DNA of 44,135 bases from Thermodiscus sp. (GTDB lineage: Archaea; Thermoproteota; Thermoprotei_A; Sulfolobales; Acidilobaceae): contig WAKH01000045.1 of NCBI GenBank assembly GCA_015523485.1, positions 1 to 44,135 on the forward strand. The letters run 5' to 3'. Positions 1,932 through 42,624 of the stretch are shown here, in pieces. The notes under the pieces are model-generated. The model was not told the origin of the DNA. It was given only the letters and a program-made list of their open reading frames with translations, and did no database searches. The position numbers and the translations under genes are program-made. Numbering within the stretch: position 1 is the stretch's first letter; each line of letters opens with the position of its first letter.

Positions 1932-2867
1932 ATGAAGCCAAAAAACATAGAATGCATAATAGACGCCCACACCCACCTACCCACAAACCCTCCAAAAACC
2001 CCAAAAACATTCCTCCAAGAACTATCAAGAAAGGGAGTAAACGGTGCAATCATACTAGGTATACCAGCAGTAAAAACCCTCCTCGAAACAATAGACCCGA
2101 AACACGTGAATAAGGAGCATGAGAAAATCAAGGAATTCCTATCAAAATACCACAGCAACATAAATGATTTCCAGCCAGACATACTGCTCATGAATGCCCT
2201 CAAAATGATGACCAGTTATGGCAGACTCTGCAGCTTCAATCCCATAGGTGAGCGCTACAAAGTCATGGCAGCAGCAGATCTATCGAAGGACCCGGAGTCG
2301 TTGGCTAGAGAACTTGAAGCCCTCGTCAAGAGAGGGTTTAAGGGATTCAAAGTAATCTCAACTATATTCATGAAGCACCTCGACAACAAAACGGTTGAAA
2401 GCGTCTTTGAAGTGGCCCAATCCCATAACCTTCCAGTAATTGTACACGCTGGTTGCGATCCAGGCATATGGGAACTGCCAGGCTACTGTAAGTACGGAGA
2501 CCCTTCGAGACTCTACAAGATACTAAGAGAACATCGCGACGTAACTACCATAATAGCTCATATAGGAAGCTACAGCTACCTTGCACCGGGAGTCTTCCTA
2601 GAGGAGACAATCGAATTGGTAAGAAGGTTTGCTAATGTTTATGTTGATACAAGCGCGGTTCCACCACAGCTGGTTGGGATAGCTGCTAAACACGTACCAG
2701 CTGATAAGATACTCTTCGGTTCAGACTATCCCGTCATTAATAACATTGAACTCGAGAGCTTCATCTTCGAAGTCTATAAACAGTTGAAGAATGCAGGCTT
2801 CTCAACTCGGGAGGTGAATAAAGTTTTCTGGATCAACGCCTTAAATATATTTGGAATAAGGTGTTGA
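1932..2867 (+). CDS. Metal-dependent amidohydrolase (amidohydrolase_2 type)
   Basis: A 311-residue TIM-barrel hydrolase of the amidohydrolase superfamily. The first strand carries IIDAHTH (D11, H13, H15), metal ligands typical of the family. VIVHAG near residue 172, IIAHIGS near 209 and ILFGSDYP near 262 supply the later histidines and the catalytic aspartate. The length fits the amidohydrolase_2/TIM-barrel hydrolase group rather than TatD (about 260 residues). The substrate cannot be told; relatives act as decarboxylases, lactonases or amidases. It reads away from acs across a 170-base AT-rich divergent region. The stop is three bases before the start of the acetyltransferase at 2871, so the two are probably cotranscribed. 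Confidence 0.8.
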   Translation: MKPKNIECIIDAHTHLPTNPPKTPKTFLQELSRKGVNGAIILGIPAVKTLLETIDPKHVNKEHEKIKEFLSKYHSNINDFQPDILLMNALKMMTSYGRLCSFNPIGERYKVMAAADLSKDPESLARELEALVKRGFKGFKVISTIFMKHLDNKTVESVFEVAQSHNLPVIVHAGCDPGIWELPGYCKYGDPSRLYKILREHRDVTTIIAHIGSYSYLAPGVFLEETIELVRRFANVYVDTSAVPPQLVGIAAKHVPADKILFGSDYPVINNIELESFIFEVYKQLKNAGFSTREVNKVFWINALNIFGIRC

Positions 2868-2870
2868 GTA

Positions 2871-3434
2871 TTGCAGGTTAACTGCACGCGGACGGTAATA
2901 CGCCATGATAAAGTTGGCGAGATTATCATACGAAAGCCCTCGCCCTACGATAAGAAACTTGTGGAAGAGTTTCTTAGGAGGTTGAGCCAGGAATCGATAT
3001 ACCATAGGTTCTTTAAACTGATTAAAGATTATGGGGAAATAGTTGATAAAATGCTTGGGGAAGACACAAAGGTATGTCTACTAATGGAGAAGGACTCAAA
3101 AGTCATTGGCTGCGCAGAAGTGTACAAGACCATATGGCCGGAAGTTGGAGAGCCAGCGGTAGCAATACTCGACGATTACCAGGGAAAGGGTCTTGGAAAA
3201 CTCCTAGTATTTCTCCTAGCGATATGTTCCTACAAGGTTGGAATACGTAGGTTCAGGGCATACATATTCAAAGAGAATCTGCCCGCGATCAGGATAGCGT
3301 CGAAACTATCATCGAAGATAATCGAAGACTATGGTGATTCACTGCTTATTGAAATGGAAGTAGAAAGGAGTTTAGATGATATCATGGATTACATTAGACT
3401 ACATTTTGAAATTCTGCCTGGCGAGAGAGCATGA
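2871..3434 (+). CDS. GNAT acetyltransferase, Pat-like
   Basis: A 187-residue GCN5-related N-acetyltransferase. The acetyl-CoA pyrophosphate loop is QGKGLGK at residues 104-110. The N-terminal RKPSPYDKKLVEEFLRRLS followed by a YHRFF-like segment resembles protein acetyltransferase Pat, whose bacterial form acetylates the active-site lysine of acetyl-CoA synthetase and whose Sulfolobus relative acetylates Alba. The start is TTG, just after the amidohydrolase stop, implying translational coupling. The gene ends four bases before the convergent radical SAM gene. The acs gene nearby makes Acs a natural substrate candidate, but that is inference from family and position. No deacetylase (Sir2) gene is in the window. 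Confidence 0.75.
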   Translation: MQVNCTRTVIRHDKVGEIIIRKPSPYDKKLVEEFLRRLSQESIYHRFFKLIKDYGEIVDKMLGEDTKVCLLMEKDSKVIGCAEVYKTIWPEVGEPAVAILDDYQGKGLGKLLVFLLAICSYKVGIRRFRAYIFKENLPAIRIASKLSSKIIEDYGDSLLIEMEVERSLDDIMDYIRLHFEILPGERA

Positions 3435-32413: not shown

Positions 32414-33415
32414 TTATTTCTTCATGCACATCTTCTTGAACCATTTCGCCGTCTCGGTACAGTCCTGTTCTCTCTTCTGGGGACTCTCTGAAACGTCCAC
32501 TACTATCCTCTTGAATTTATCAACATCTTCGACTGTCATGAAGGGTCGCGAGCTAGTCCTAGCCGTTGACATTGTTAGGCAAATGTCGTTTTCTGGATCC
32601 TCCGGGTCTAGGACGGTGGTAGGCATCCAGTGGCGCTCGTGCAGTTTTCTGCCACTCGTGTATATGTTGAGTACTCCGCCCACGAGGACGAGGGGTGCTC
32701 CTGCATCAATTGATCTCGCCGTTAGTATTTTGTCGATGAAGCAATGCTTCATAGTGACTATGGGACCCTCCTTCTGCGGCGGTGGGAGGAATCTGCTCCT
32801 GTAGGGCATCATGTGCCCTATAACGAGGTGGACCTTGTTTATATAAAATGCCTCGAATAATACTGGGGAGAACAAATCCTCATCTATGAATACTCCTATC
32901 CTACCTATCGGCCTCCCTCCCACGTCTACGACATCGAATATTCCTGGCGTTTTTCCACGGGTGAGGCCGAGCTCCTCTTCTGCTGGGGTTAGCATAACCT
33001 TCCTATACTTTTCAAGGGACCCGTCTGGCTTAATCATGACTGTTGTAACATAGTTCCTGGGGCCAGCGACCTCATATACAGGTCCATAAAGTATATTGAC
33101 GCCATAGCTCGCGGCAAGCCTCCGCAGCATCCTAATAGGATTGTTTTGACTCATTGTCTTCGGGTTGAGCGTCGTCGCCCTGAACCGGACTCGGGCCTTG
33201 GCCCTCTCGGGATTTCTAACATAGGCTGGAATATTCCCCGTTATAGGGTATGCGTTTGAGACGAGTAGGTGGGGCAGCATACCCTTAGCACTCGCCTCTT
33301 CAAGATAACTTGAAACCATGTTGATGAACTTGTGGGTGTTCGCGTTGTAGCTCGGCCCGCTTCTTGCTGCTTTGATAGAACCGTGGAGCACTGTCACGTG
33401 GAGCTCCTTTGCCAT
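32414..33415 (-). CDS. Degenerate carbon-nitrogen hydrolase (nitrilase-fold) protein
   Basis: A 333-residue protein of the nitrilase superfamily judged by YRKVMLTPAEEELG (catalytic Lys region), the following GIFDVVDVGGRPIGRIGVFIDEDLFSP and later beta strands. The usual Glu-Lys-Cys triad appears broken: the lysine is present, but IDED replaces the ICxD cysteine site and SNAYPITG replaces PExxxTG. It may be catalytically inactive or use another chemistry. Its ATG overlaps the reverse gyrase stop (TAATG), so the two are translationally coupled, an unexpected partner. Family assignment is moderately sure. Confidence 0.62.
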   Translation of the reverse strand: MAKELHVTVLHGSIKAARSGPSYNANTHKFINMVSSYLEEASAKGMLPHLLVSNAYPITGNIPAYVRNPERAKARVRFRATTLNPKTMSQNNPIRMLRRLAASYGVNILYGPVYEVAGPRNYVTTVMIKPDGSLEKYRKVMLTPAEEELGLTRGKTPGIFDVVDVGGRPIGRIGVFIDEDLFSPVLFEAFYINKVHLVIGHMMPYRSRFLPPPQKEGPIVTMKHCFIDKILTARSIDAGAPLVLVGGVLNIYTSGRKLHERHWMPTTVLDPEDPENDICLTMSTARTSSRPFMTVEDVDKFKRIVVDVSESPQKREQDCTETAKWFKKMCMKK

Positions 33416-36400
33416 TACTCTACCGCCTCCCTACTCCTCCTATACCCTGATATACATTTCGCCAGCTCGTTAGAATCAGATTGGTATGCCGCCACTACTG
33501 GGCGGGCAATACCCTCTATCTCCGAGTATACTTCATTCATTATAACTATTCTCTCTGCCACCCCCTTCTCGATCTCCTCCATCTTCTCCTGCAGAGCCCT
33601 CGTCCTCTCCTCAGCTACTAGTGATGGTATCTTCTTGAGATACTCGTAGTCTATCAACTTCTCAAGTCCACGGGGGTTGACAGCGATCTCCCTAGTCAGA
33701 TACTCATAGATAGCTTTACCCCTATGAGTAGGGATAACACGGTCTTCTGGACCCCTGCTAATGTATCTTCTCCTATAGAGCGTCTCCACTATCTTAGCAT
33801 AGGTGCTAGGCCTACCAATACCTCTCTCCTTCATTAGTCTTATGATATCTCCCTCAGTATAGAGTGGTACCTTACTTCTCTTTCTTACATGCTCGAGAAC
33901 CGCCGCTTTCAGACCTGGTTCAAGGGCGTGCTGCTCCCGTATATAGTACCAGACCAGCGTGAACCCTTTGCTGATCGGGTCTTCATCCCTGCCTATTTTG
34001 ACTATTCTGTCGACTGTTATGTAGGAGTCTGAGCCTAGGATCTCAACCTTATACACTGCCCTCTTAACTATAGCCTCCCTCATCTGGCTGGCCATGAATC
34101 TGCGGAATATCAGATCGTATAGCCTATAGTGTGCCGCCGTTAATCTACCAGCGATTGGTAGAACTCCCTCCTCTACTAGACGCCTCAAGTTGTCGGCGTC
34201 GATAGGCCTTGTCGGCCTTATAGCCTCGTGGGCGCCTCCTTCACCCCATCTCCTGGGTCTGAATAGCTTGTCGGCGTCGTCGCCGAACGCATCCTTCAAC
34301 CAGTCTCTTGCAACCTGTATACCCCTATCGCTCACTCTTGTAGAGTCGGTTCTATGATAGGTTATGAGACCCATTTCGAACAGATTCTGGGCGAGCCTCA
34401 TCGTTTCAGGAGCACCAAGTCCTAGGTAACGATTTGCGTCCATTATCATAGAGTCTGTCGTGTATGGTGGTGGCGGATTTATCGTCTCTTCCTTTTCTTC
34501 TATTACATCGATCTTTACATCTACATCGACAGTCTTTGTTTTCTTGAAGAACTGTTTGAGTACTTGGGGCTTTCCTATGAGGTCGAGCTCCGTGAAGTAG
34601 ATACGGGTCCCATTGATTAACAGCCTGTATTCGTTGATCTTCTCTTTTGCCTCCTCAGCCCTTTCTATAATCCAGCCTAGCACTGGCGTCTGAACTCTAC
34701 CAGCACTTAGATTATAATAGTATCTGAACCTCCTGCACCGTGTCTTTTCATTCTCCTGGAATCTGCCTGGCCTTGGAAGATCTTCCAGGGATGGACAGTA
34801 GACGCGGGGCCAGAAGTGACACCATAATAGTGGCGAGAGTGTAAAGCCTATCCACCTATCCTCTATCCTTCTAACTATTTGAGCATCAACTAGCCTCTGG
34901 TCGAAGTCCCTTAGGTTTCTTAACGCCTCCATTATCGCCTTCCTGGTCACCTCGTGGAACTCTAGCCTCTGGATCCCTCGCGAGTATGGTTTGAGGAGGA
35001 GTGCAACGTCCCATCCAATCTTTTCTCCTTCAGTGTCTGGGTCTGTTCCTATCAATACAACGTCTGACTCCCAAGCAAGCCTTCTCAAGTCCTCGACGAC
35101 CGTACGCGAGTCCCTGATGTTAGTGCTTCCACACACGGGACATTTGTCTGACTCTATCGTGAATTGGTACCCGCAGTCCAGGCACCTCTTTATGCTTGTG
35201 TAGATTGGGTGGAAGTCCCTCTCCCTCGAATTAACGACGTATACTCCGAATAACCACTCGGGCGAGCTAACCCCTGGTGGTAGATCGTCGCTTAGCTTCT
35301 CAGTTGCTAGATCGTATACGTGACCGCCACTCGCTATTATTGTGAGTAGGAGGTCCCCAGTCGAGATCTCGTAGGCCCTTAGCCCGCCTGGTAATAATCT
35401 TATACTTGGCTGGCCGAAGAAGCCAGCTATAGTCCTAGCCTTATTCGGAGACTCTACAATCAATAATGCAGTCTTAACGAGGTCTTTGAGCTTCTCCTCA
35501 CCCTTTAATACCCTACGTACCTTCTTCCTCTCCTCTTCTATCTCGGACATTATCTTTTCAAGGTCTAGCTCGTTGAAGTCCCTCCACTGGGCATCCACCA
35601 TCCAGGAAGTCCTCTTGATCAATCCTTGAAGAACCCTCTCATCGTCTACTATAACGACGCTCAATCCTAGCGTGATTCCACCCGCGTATAACCTGCTGGT
35701 TCTGCCACTGGCTTGTAGATAGGTGGCAGCGTCCGCTACCAGGATGTATCTCTCACCATTTACTCTCACAATTGCTATATCTCTCCTCTCTTCAAGATAC
35801 TTCCAGACCTCTTCATCCGATAGAGCGTTAAGGAGGAAGTTATACGCCTCGTAAATGGCCCATGTGGCCTGGCTGGCTTTCGGATCACCTTGCAGTATTC
35901 TTTCTGCAATCATTTGTAGAGCGGCTGGGCTCAAGGATCTCGTAATCCTCCTGACTATGGCCAGGTGCCTCCTAGCGGTCTCGGCAACATCCTCAATGGG
36001 GATATCGACTAGTAGACCCAATAATCTCAGGATGCTTGAGGGTGATGGATAACCTACTTCAGCCGAGAACTTATGCCTGGGGACCCCAGCGAATATGGCG
36101 TACCTAACTCTTTCAGGTAAGTCTATGCCCCTGACGAGTACGCCGTAATAGTTAGCCACACCCACAAGGACGTTTATCTTGCCATCGGCGAAATCCTCTA
36201 GAAGAGTTAGCGGTTTCTTGGAATGGAATGCTTCAGCGTTCACACCAGCCTCTCGGAGCATTTCTGCTAGCTTCTCGGCACCCTCTATTCCATGATCAAT
36301 TGGTACATAAACGAGGGTCCCGTCTCTGAAGTAATTCTTGACCAGGTCAACGACTTCTTCATAAATTTCCTTCTCGGGTTTTTTGAAGGAGTCTATAACC

Positions 36401-37437
36401 CTCCTAAGCCCAATATCTCCTCTACCGCCAGCCTCGAAGCCAAGGAGGACGCGGAACAGTTTGACTCTCGAGCCACGTGGTCTACCCGTTGCACTACTCA
36501 CTATTAGTGTAGACGCCCTTTTCCTTGGCCCTTCGAGTCTACTATCTAACTCTTTGGCCCGCTTCTCAAGTTGTAACAGCTCCTTCTTGAGCTCCTCCAA
36601 TCTTTCCTGCGTTGTCTGTCTCTGGCTGAGTTGTAGGCGTAGAATGTTTGCCCTTAGTGACGCTATCCTTCTTTGGAGTCTGAGTAATTCTAGGCCGTTT
36701 GATATGTCTTCATCGCTGAATCCAACGATCTTCAACACAGCATCGACGCTCTTGGCACTCCTTAACACGGCGTCAACGTCGTCTATGAATACGAGCTTAA
36801 ACTTGATCTTTGATAGCTGGTCGACATATTTTCGAGCGAAGCTGGCCGTTGTTATCAGGACATCGAAGTCTCTGTTATTGAAGGCTTCTAATGCCTCCTC
36901 CCTTTGCTTTTTCCTTAGCTTGCTATGAATCGCCACTATTCTAGCATTGCATCCCACATTATCCGCGTAGGTTGAGATCCTCTTGTATGCCATCTCGACT
37001 AACGTCGTGGTCGGGAACACCAGGTAGCTTTTCGACCTTTTACGGCAGGCGAGGTAGAGGCTTGCTACGAGTCCAAATGTCGTCTTACCCACGCCTGTAG
37101 GTGCTATTATGGAGAAGCTATCTCCTCTAACGAGTCGGCGTGACCATGTTCTTTGGGCCCCCCATGCACGGCTGCCTACAACTTCATAAAAGAATTGTAT
37201 CAGCTCTTCTGATTCCTTCTCGAGTTTGACTATTTCGTTGAAACGTTGTGTTAGCGTCTTGTTTTCTTTTAACGCTCTGTAGATAGAGAAGACGTCGTTT
37301 AGCTCAGTCGCGTATTTTTCGGGTATACATCTAGGACATGGGAGTCCTCTCTGGAGCCTGTCTTCGGTATTAGTCTTTCCACAATTTGGGCATGAGTGTC
37401 TGTACGAGCCTCTTCCTATAATTACTGAGTTGGTCAA
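33415..37437 (-). CDS. rgy: Reverse gyrase
   Basis: A 1340-residue enzyme that introduces positive supercoils using ATP; it marks hyperthermophiles. An N-terminal zinc finger (C16, C19, C34, C37) precedes the SF2 helicase-like domain with Walker A APTGVGKT (112-119) and the DDVD box near 198. The topoisomerase IA domain begins near 650 (LLIVESPNKA), with a second zinc finger (CLDCG...CPVCG), the metal site GTDPDTEGEKIGWD and catalytic tyrosine in GLITYHRTDS near 1027. Both cysteine-type fingers are kept. TTG start, GGTG eight bases upstream. It is coupled to the nitrilase-fold gene. Confidence 0.98.
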   Translation of the reverse strand: MTNSVIIGRGSYRHSCPNCGKTNTEDRLQRGLPCPRCIPEKYATELNDVFSIYRALKENKTLTQRFNEIVKLEKESEELIQFFYEVVGSRAWGAQRTWSRRLVRGDSFSIIAPTGVGKTTFGLVASLYLACRKRSKSYLVFPTTTLVEMAYKRISTYADNVGCNARIVAIHSKLRKKQREEALEAFNNRDFDVLITTASFARKYVDQLSKIKFKLVFIDDVDAVLRSAKSVDAVLKIVGFSDEDISNGLELLRLQRRIASLRANILRLQLSQRQTTQERLEELKKELLQLEKRAKELDSRLEGPRKRASTLIVSSATGRPRGSRVKLFRVLLGFEAGGRGDIGLRRVIDSFKKPEKEIYEEVVDLVKNYFRDGTLVYVPIDHGIEGAEKLAEMLREAGVNAEAFHSKKPLTLLEDFADGKINVLVGVANYYGVLVRGIDLPERVRYAIFAGVPRHKFSAEVGYPSPSSILRLLGLLVDIPIEDVAETARRHLAIVRRITRSLSPAALQMIAERILQGDPKASQATWAIYEAYNFLLNALSDEEVWKYLEERRDIAIVRVNGERYILVADAATYLQASGRTSRLYAGGITLGLSVVIVDDERVLQGLIKRTSWMVDAQWRDFNELDLEKIMSEIEEERKKVRRVLKGEEKLKDLVKTALLIVESPNKARTIAGFFGQPSIRLLPGGLRAYEISTGDLLLTIIASGGHVYDLATEKLSDDLPPGVSSPEWLFGVYVVNSRERDFHPIYTSIKRCLDCGYQFTIESDKCPVCGSTNIRDSRTVVEDLRRLAWESDVVLIGTDPDTEGEKIGWDVALLLKPYSRGIQRLEFHEVTRKAIMEALRNLRDFDQRLVDAQIVRRIEDRWIGFTLSPLLWCHFWPRVYCPSLEDLPRPGRFQENEKTRCRRFRYYYNLSAGRVQTPVLGWIIERAEEAKEKINEYRLLINGTRIYFTELDLIGKPQVLKQFFKKTKTVDVDVKIDVIEEKEETINPPPPYTTDSMIMDANRYLGLGAPETMRLAQNLFEMGLITYHRTDSTRVSDRGIQVARDWLKDAFGDDADKLFRPRRWGEGGAHEAIRPTRPIDADNLRRLVEEGVLPIAGRLTAAHYRLYDLIFRRFMASQMREAIVKRAVYKVEILGSDSYITVDRIVKIGRDEDPISKGFTLVWYYIREQHALEPGLKAAVLEHVRKRSKVPLYTEGDIIRLMKERGIGRPSTYAKIVETLYRRRYISRGPEDRVIPTHRGKAIYEYLTREIAVNPRGLEKLIDYEYLKKIPSLVAEERTRALQEKMEEIEKGVAERIVIMNEVYSEIEGIARPVVAAYQSDSNELAKCISGYRRSREAVE

Positions 37438-39777: not shown

Positions 39778-40440
39778 TTATCCAATAGACTGCATATCTA
39801 TCGGTATATGCACGGTCAATGTTGTACAGTAGCCTGCAATGTTACACACTGTAGTATTAACCTGAAATGCGCCTTCAAAGTCCCTTGATACAGCAATATA
39901 ATATGTAGTGTGGATTACCCGGCCAGGATCAATACCTCTCTTTACTAGAGCATCCTGGCATAATGAAATGAGATTAACCGCTTCACCTCTCCGTGTTTCG
40001 ATCGTTGGCCACGTATCCAATGGAAGATGTAATGTGAATCCGGGGCCGAAACAGTCAGGTCCTCCTGTGACTAGGACTAGTGTTTCTGAAGAATTATTTT
40101 CTAGGTAAACATTTATTTCAATTATATCTCCACCATTATTAATTATATCAAAGACCTTTGATTTGAGACTGCTATAGTCCGAGTAACTATCGCTCCTGAG
40201 TGCATCGAGTATCTTCTCTTTTATTTGGCTGTCGGCAACATTATAGGAGGCCGTAATATTAACTGGCATCCTCCCAGTCATATTTCCCGATCTTTCGATT
40301 ATTATTGTGCCTCCCGCAATTTCATATACTTTATTTGTCAATGGGTTGACTTGCCTCGATGTTATTGTATAGAGGGAGATGACTGCGAGGAGTACTATTA
40401 TCAATGATAATGTTAATCTTGAGGATTGCGTGTCCACCAC
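39778..40440 (-). CDS. Membrane-anchored extracytoplasmic protein, unknown
   Basis: A 220-residue protein with one N-terminal hydrophobic helix (about residues 9-26) and an outside domain containing several N-x-S/T sites (such as NMTG, NITA, NNSS, NTTV). Two cysteines near the end (VCNIAGYC) could pair. No family recognised. It lies 66 bases from the secreted His-rich gene on the same strand, with which it may form a unit. Confidence 0.6.
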   Translation of the reverse strand: MVDTQSSRLTLSLIIVLLAVISLYTITSRQVNPLTNKVYEIAGGTIIIERSGNMTGRMPVNITASYNVADSQIKEKILDALRSDSYSDYSSLKSKVFDIINNGGDIIEINVYLENNSSETLVLVTGGPDCFGPGFTLHLPLDTWPTIETRRGEAVNLISLCQDALVKRGIDPGRVIHTTYYIAVSRDFEGAFQVNTTVCNIAGYCTTLTVHIPIDMQSIG

Positions 40441-40506: not shown

Positions 40507-41157
40507 TTAAGTTGACGATGTTATAGAGCCAAATCCGTAGACTGGTGACCCAGTAATTGTCACATTCTCGTGATCGTGATGCTCACCTACCTCAACATAG
40601 ATCCATACGATCGCCTTGTCGTGCCCATAAACGTTTACTTGGGGTACGTTTGTTGGGAAAGGTAGATCTCCGCATTCCACATGTCCCCATACTCCGCTGT
40701 TACCAGGTGAGATGAATGGACCGTAGAGGTATACCTCATAGTAGCTTGCTCCTTCTACATTATAGCCCGTTAGCATCACAGGGGGTCCGTCCTCGTTCTC
40801 TAGAACTAGGCCAACCCACAGTCCGTGGCATTCATGTTCATGATCGTTGTCGTGGTCACGGCTTGAAGTAGATATGCTACTAGAGTCATCGTGGTCCTCG
40901 TGTTCCTCATGGTGGTTTATTGTGAGGGTGAATTCAGCTCCATTCGTTGTTAAGTTCATGTGTTCTTCCTCGCAGCATTCCTCGTGGCAACAACAGACTA
41001 TTTTCCAACTCCCTATTTCGAGTGAGCCATTTGCAATCGTTACGTCCGCGTTTATCCGGGTGGTATCGTCCCATGACGAGTAGGAAAGGTAGTTGTATGG
41101 TGATGCTGCTATTAGTGTTGCCATAATCATTACTAGTGCTATGAGTTTGTATCCCAA
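40507..41157 (-). CDS. Secreted His/Asp/Cys-rich protein, possible TasA/CalY-like fibre protein
   Basis: 216 residues with an N-terminal signal-like helix (about 1-18). The next part, SPYNYLSYSSWDD...NADVTIANGSLEIG, resembles the mature start of SipW-dependent TasA/CalY proteins and archaeal bundling-pilus subunits, but only by eye. Unusual insertions are metal-ligand runs: CCCHEECCEEEH (55-66), HHEEHEDHDD (82-91), DHDNDHEHECH (101-111) and EHHDHE (192-197). They could bind Zn, Ni, Cu or Ca, or form a charged loop. ATG start. Function unknown; metal binding is inference from composition. Confidence 0.6.
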   Translation of the reverse strand: MGYKLIALVMIMATLIAASPYNYLSYSSWDDTTRINADVTIANGSLEIGSWKIVCCCHEECCEEEHMNLTTNGAEFTLTINHHEEHEDHDDSSSISTSSRDHDNDHEHECHGLWVGLVLENEDGPPVMLTGYNVEGASYYEVYLYGPFISPGNSGVWGHVECGDLPFPTNVPQVNVYGHDKAIVWIYVEVGEHHDHENVTITGSPVYGFGSITSST

Positions 41158-41310
41158 TTTATCGATACACCGTGGCTGAAAGCCTCAATAAAGCTTTATA
41201 TATTAATTGAAACAATGATATATAACATTACATCGGTAGAGTCCTACAGATACACAACATATCTATATCAGCATTCTATGTCCCCGATTATATGAATTGG
41301 TAGCGTTAAA

Positions 41311-42624
41311 ATGAAGGGTTACACTGAGAAGGCAAAGAAAGGCTACCTAGAAACAGGAACCCTGTTTCCCAGAGACATTATATGGAGCATGGGTCTCATC
41401 AAGGCAGCAGCTGCAAAAGCAAACCACACGCTAGGAATTATAGGGGAGGAGCAATTCAGGGCTATCTATGAGACGGCCTTGGAGCTAGCCAGAGGAGAAT
41501 ACGATGATGAAATCACAGTTGATGTCTACCAGACAGGTAGTGGTACAGGGTTAAACCTAAATGTAAATGAAGTAATCGCAAAGCATGCATCATCAAAATA
41601 CGGCGTTCGAATCCACCCATTAGATGACGTTAACAAGAGCCAGAGCAGCAACGACGTCATCCCAACAGCTGTAAGGCTTATGGCCCTGAAGAAGACTAAG
41701 CAACTCATTCAATCAATCGAAAAATTATACAGTCAACTCGAAGAGTTGGCAGAGAAATATAGGGATTATGTAAAGCCCGGTAGAACCCATCTCAGAGACG
41801 CCCTACCTATAACGTTCGGTTTAGAGTTAGACGCATACGCCAAGATATTCAAACATCACACAGCTTCACTAAGCAATATAATGAAGCTACTCTTGCCTGT
41901 CCCGTTAGGTGGGACGGCTGTTGGGACCGGAGCCAATTCTCCCAAAGGATATCGTGAGAAGGCAGTCTCTATACTCGCAGAATTATCAGGCTTCGATCTC
42001 AAGTCAATGGAGAATCCCTCTGCTAAGATGAAGAGCGTCTACGACCTGATCATTCTCTCAGGAGCGTTTAGGGCCCTAGGCCTGGACTTATACAAGCTAT
42101 GCCAGGATCTCCGGCTACTATATAGCGGTCCATTTACAGGCATAGGTGAGATTGACATCAAGATGGATGTGCCTGGTAGCAGTATTATGCCTGGTAAGAG
42201 GAATCCCGTTACACTTGAAGCAATAATGCAGGCTATAGCAGAAGTATTCGGCTTAGATTCGAGCATAGGGTTCTCTGCAACCCTTGGCGAGCTGGAGTTA
42301 TACCTAGGCTATCCATTGATCGCATATAATCTCCATACAATGGCGAGCCTCCTCATAGAATCCATCAATAAACTCGTAGACGTAGTACTTCCAAACCTGA
42401 AGCCAGACAAGGAGAAAATGGAATCTCTAGCCTGGAGGAGTGCTGCGCTACTCACGGCCCTATCGCCATTATTGGGTTACGATAAGGTCGCTCGTATAGT
42501 AGAGAAGATCTCCTCTGGCATGAGCATACATGAGGCGTTGAGGAGCGAGGGATTACCAGAAAAATTGCTGGAGAAAGTGGATCCTAGGCGGATGCTTCAA
42601 CCCTACGATAGCAGAGAGGATTAG
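41311..42624 (+). CDS. Class II fumarase / aspartase-family lyase
   Basis: A 437-residue member of the fumarase/aspartase superfamily, which eliminates water or ammonia to give fumarate. QTGSGTGLNLNVNEVIA, NKSQSSNDVIP (substrate loop) and the signature GSSIMPGKRNP are intact; the signature carries the catalytic serine loop. Fumarase and aspartase are hard to separate; SQSSND and the absence of a typical aspartase tail lean to fumarase, but GTGLNLN instead of GTQTNMN is noncanonical. It lacks the Ala-Ser-Gly MIO triad, so it is not histidine ammonia-lyase. ATG start. Confidence 0.82.
   Translation: MKGYTEKAKKGYLETGTLFPRDIIWSMGLIKAAAAKANHTLGIIGEEQFRAIYETALELARGEYDDEITVDVYQTGSGTGLNLNVNEVIAKHASSKYGVRIHPLDDVNKSQSSNDVIPTAVRLMALKKTKQLIQSIEKLYSQLEELAEKYRDYVKPGRTHLRDALPITFGLELDAYAKIFKHHTASLSNIMKLLLPVPLGGTAVGTGANSPKGYREKAVSILAELSGFDLKSMENPSAKMKSVYDLIILSGAFRALGLDLYKLCQDLRLLYSGPFTGIGEIDIKMDVPGSSIMPGKRNPVTLEAIMQAIAEVFGLDSSIGFSATLGELELYLGYPLIAYNLHTMASLLIESINKLVDVVLPNLKPDKEKMESLAWRSAALLTALSPLLGYDKVARIVEKISSGMSIHEALRSEGLPEKLLEKVDPRRMLQPYDSRED

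Follow-up and report, generated by a model that had tools for sequence, protein, structure and literature searches.

The window analysed here, a stretch of 44,135 nt of DNA from Thermodiscus sp. (contig WAKH01000045.1), carries at 40507–41157 on the minus strand an open reading frame of 216 aa with a TTG start codon, whose GC and GC3 are similar to those of the window. We assign it to a metal-ligand-rich ABP-like protein on the basis of its sequence, a family search and a profile match to AbpX, the donor-strand-exchanged, ABP-like fibre of Pyrodictium abyssi (PMC11952670). A putative TATA-like sequence read from the upstream region, TATATAAA (41196–41203, minus strand), lies approximately 40 bp from the start codon. 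The neighbours of the gene are ordinary metabolic and ribosome-biogenesis genes, and the divergent one, with its start at 41311, belongs to the fumarase/aspartase family. At 33415–37437 (minus strand) the window also encodes a protein of 1340 aa, judged by its sequence a putative reverse gyrase, which would fit a hyperthermophile. A second exported protein, of 220 aa, is encoded on the same strand 66 bp downstream of the gene (39778–40440, minus strand); no homologue of this orphan was found in any other of the 60 genomes searched and it therefore gives no functional clue.

Judged by its sequence, the window protein is exported. Its signal peptide (aa 1–27; 41077–41157, minus strand) was assigned from the sequence, the cleavage pattern seen family-wide and a helix at residues 3–18 of the structure model, with cleavage predicted at SYS/SW (cut at the slash). 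The resulting junction, SYS/SWDDTTRINADVTIANG, fits the small-x-small/x-W pattern found throughout the family, whose members have a Sec signal peptide followed by a conserved W-[ST]-[DE]-x-L donor strand; the window protein reads S-W-D-D-T-T, with Thr in place of the Leu of this motif. Its predicted N-terminal donor strand (aa 28–45, SWDDTTRINADVTIANGS; 41023–41076, minus strand) aligns with the mature N-terminus of AbpX and is unstructured in the monomer model. An archaeal type IV pilin was considered and rejected, the Pilin_N domain scoring 13 bits against a cut-off of 25.2.

Four runs of His, Asp, Glu and Cys are present in the window protein (aa 55–66, 82–91, 101–111 and 192–197). Combining the listing of these runs with their projection on the family alignment places them in three loops, which in window numbering span aa 56–66, 81–112 and 190–198. 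Loop 1 holds CCCHEECCEEEH (aa 55–66; 40960–40995), loop 2 holds HHEEHEDHDD (aa 82–91; 40885–40914) followed by DHDNDHEHECH (aa 101–111; 40825–40857), and loop 3 holds EHHDHE (aa 192–197; 40567–40584), all on the minus strand. With the composition of the window's ORFs as background, both the 15 His (binomial p = 2e-5) and the 7 Cys (p = 0.003) are in excess, and none of 20,000 shuffles clustered H, C, D and E locally as strongly as they are clustered in the mature protein. The first-pass annotation, which had described an exported protein with four metal-ligand-rich segments, is thereby confirmed as to the ORF, the runs and the signal peptide.

Projected on the alignment, 70% of the His and Cys of the family fall in the three loops, which make up 19% of the residues, Cys being dominant in loop 1 and His in loop 2. 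The median content of His plus Cys is 7.7% in the family versus 3.1% in its ABP-like paralogues. The annotation had also made conservation of the His-rich segments among orthologs a point of its case: the exact strings are not conserved between family members in the alignment, while the position of the loops that hold them is conserved across the family. With loop sequences that vary from member to member, a defined metal site cannot be assigned. Members rich in His and Cys (at least nine) account for 25 of 40, the state changing three times across the tree, and a ligand-poor clade has few His or Cys in its loops and keeps a CxxC or a single Cys in loop 1. The existence of this clade indicates that the metal ligands are dispensable for the core function. 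We infer from the density of ligands in these sequences that the loops may bind metal.

Neither Pfam nor NCBIfam holds a model that matches the family of the window protein. When 147 genomes were searched with the single protein, matches were found in 21, its own genome included; such a query misses many family members, which an alignment query recovers. When the query was an 18-member alignment, carriers numbered 42 among the 214 genomes searched in the order, a count of matches better than ~1e-13 in which two are fragments at contig ends. A narrower query found eight named loci, and the named relatives, all MAGs, belong to Acidilobaceae, Desulfurococcales, Pyrodictiaceae, Desulfurococcaceae and Sulfolobales. 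The tree places the window protein with the two Acidilobaceae members (support 97/92), and weaker matches to the family occur across the phylum.

Sequence profiles and genomic context together give good support to homology between the family and archaeal bundling pilins. A 34-member family profile run against the whole PDB gave AbpX as its sole match up to E = 10 (E 4.5e-4), the alignment beginning with a Trp, residue 2 of the AbpX chain; with the earlier 18-member profile AbpX was likewise the best PDB match, at a non-significant E of 0.34. The ABP-like pilins adjoining the family gene in relatives themselves match AbpX (E 5e-10). Profile-profile comparison of the family with these neighbouring pilins gave 98.8% (E 1e-16; 97.6% in an earlier comparison), and with a second ABP set, including the two pilins of the own genome, again 98.8%, versus 0.4% for signal peptidases as a control. 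The part of AbpX (PDB 9sj2, 9rhp) that aligns is the first half of the fold, in which its mature N-terminus, WSETLSLSATISTG, aligns with WSDTLRxNVxVxTG of the family. Because WSETLSLSATISTG lies at the end of the chain in PDB 9rhp, it is probably the donor strand. AbpX and the ABP-like paralogues differ from the family in lacking its Cys/His-rich loops, an LWVGLVIENxG strand, a YGP..WGHxxCxxLP loop and a KAVVWI strand, and the C-terminal QWNE motif of the paralogues is mostly missing from the family.

The structure model of the window protein (pLDDT 79.7) is confident in its core, and no strand precedes aa 46; aa 22–40 are of low pLDDT, and aa 29–45 are without a strand in this monomer. A mature model of a relative that lacks the inserts (L012, cut at the mature Trp) was predicted as a beta-sandwich with a pLDDT of 90.6 and a pTM of 0.84, its first 16 residues lying outside any strand. 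In a Foldseek comparison of the two models with the PDB, run without a positive control, no match fell below 1e-3 and neither TasA nor an ABP was among the best 50; both models matched only generic beta-sandwiches, the Cu(I) chaperone PCuA being the top but weak hit for the first. As Foldseek recovered neither TasA nor an ABP, the TasA/ABP fold of the family stays putative; this counts against such a fold but does not refute it. Loops 1–3 are predicted to share one pole of the sandwich, a placement taken from the alternation of strands in the models and not from coordinates.

At 12 loci of the order the family gene adjoins two ABP-like genes. A signal peptidase and DUF5305 are both present in 10 of these; of the other two, one runs into a contig end and is without DUF5305, while the second, on a short contig, has the ABP-like pair alone. 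An HTH_45 regulator also occurs at several of the loci with an ABP pair. In more distant genomes of the phylum, too, family-like members have ABP-like pilins, a signal peptidase and DUF5305 as neighbours (L112–L120). At most other loci of the order the family gene stands apart from the ABP cluster. The same holds for the window gene, which is on a different contig from the cluster of its own genome, where a row of genes encodes two ABP-like pilins together with a multi-TM signal peptidase (contig C84, 3–3350); a membrane protein encoded there at 2757–3350 has no family match. ABP-like pilins were found in 37 of the 42 carrier genomes versus 40 of 172 non-carriers (odds ratio 24, by a test that ignores shared ancestry), four carriers having as their sole ABP matches what was judged to be the family member itself. 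Five carrier genomes are without another ABP-like pilin, one of them 99% complete. One locus (L097, 974–2005, minus strand) encodes a natural fusion of 343 aa that joins an ABP-like domain to a domain of the family, the latter without a donor strand of its own.

We hold with moderate confidence that the window protein serves as an accessory pilin in an ABP/TasA-like biofilm fibre, joined by donor-strand exchange, and that its loops bind metal. The protein would be exported and then cut by signal peptidase at SYS/SW, as the conserved site suggests. Its new N-terminus, SWDDTTRINADVTIANG, would act as the donor strand and enter the open groove of an adjacent ABP-like subunit, by the alignment with AbpX, and its own beta-sandwich would either accept a strand or terminate the chain. 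As the gene is single-copy and patchily distributed, and in view of the natural ABP fusion, the protein is probably a minor, tip, base or nucleating subunit and not the bulk pilin. Loops 1–3, dense in ligands, might then take up divalent or soft metal ions and thereby connect subunits, fibres or mineral surfaces. That the position of such loops is kept in dozens of related species hints that metal ions may be bound by some ABP-type fibres or may hold them together. More tentatively, this unnamed, widespread family may use a transition metal or an iron-sulphur centre at one pole of the subunit to control fibre assembly or bundling, or to seed mineral, in heat-loving archaea, a proposal we regard as less likely than not.

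There is some chance, though we think it unlikely, that the protein is an ABP-like accessory pilin with no metal cofactor at all, its variable loops being a fast-changing adhesive surface in which His, Cys and acidic residues serve disulphides, charge or surface binding. The great variation of the loops in sequence and length (up to ~50 residues in L008 and L009) and the persistence of the CxxC pair in ligand-poor members are consistent with such a surface. However, the enrichment shared by these three loops in most lineages concerns His and Cys and not polar residues in general, and the ABP-like paralogues show no such enrichment (the medians of 3.1% and 7.7% given above). We give still less weight to a secreted metallochaperone or metal scavenger acting on its own, outside any fibre, with an export signal and fold borrowed from ABP. 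The separation of the gene from the ABP cluster, both in the window and at most other loci of the order, would agree with this, as would the PCuA match, but conservation of the donor-strand segment is among the highest in the family, and synteny and co-occurrence with ABP pilins and the ABP fusion in L097 point to the fibre. A c-type cytochrome-like pilin, carrying haem at CXXCH in the Cys/His loops of an electron-carrying fibre, is largely refuted and very improbable: 12 CXXCH occur in nine family members versus 1.8 expected from local shuffles, and cytochrome c maturation genes are present in the window's genome, but the window protein has no CXXCH, CcmC/CcmF (PF01578) was found in 0 of 10 searched genomes in which the member, or that of a close relative, has CXXCH, and the four genomes with CcmC/CcmF have members without CXXCH. 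The members with the CXXCH excess are L002, L003, L008, L085, L093–L095, L098 and L100, from genomes lacking the maturation genes by this search; these motifs may perhaps be zinc or iron-sulphur sites.

A ligand-rich accessory pilin of this kind would represent a third class of subunit for archaeal bundling pili. The gene cluster associated with it, comprising two ABP-like pilins, a signal peptidase, DUF5305 and often an HTH_45 regulator, can be searched for.

Two known systems offer analogies. For TasA of Bacillus subtilis, donor-strand exchange has been shown and TapA is an accessory subunit (PMC9674648); as in TasA/TapA/SipW, a single archaeal cluster encodes more than one exported TasA-like protein and a signal peptidase dedicated to them. 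The TasA/CalY-like N-terminus that the first-pass annotation had reported holds in the wider sense of the AbpX profile match, whereas the window protein has no match to Pfam PF12389 Peptidase_M73 (TasA/camelysin), nor does the family. Structure prediction and comparison with TasA and the archaeal bundling pilin, which the annotation had called for, yielded a predicted beta-sandwich and, within the scope of the Foldseek search above, neither TasA nor an ABP. It had also suggested looking nearby for a SipW-like peptidase: a signal peptidase does accompany two ABP-like pilins in the own genome and stands beside the gene in relatives, but that of the own genome is on the other contig and scores above the NCBI archaeal signal peptidase I cut-off and below the SipW one. 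In CanA, it is divalent ions, held at either end of the jellyroll, that drive polymerisation into cannulae (PMC12326000). No sequence match between CanA and the family was found, and the CanA sites are for ions such as Ca and Mg, unlike the His/Cys-rich loops described here; CanA is an exported jellyroll protein, from the related archaeon Pyrodictium abyssi. If the loops do bind metal, the biofilm fibres of hyperthermophiles would contain a metal-controlled element comparable with these ion-driven cannulae.
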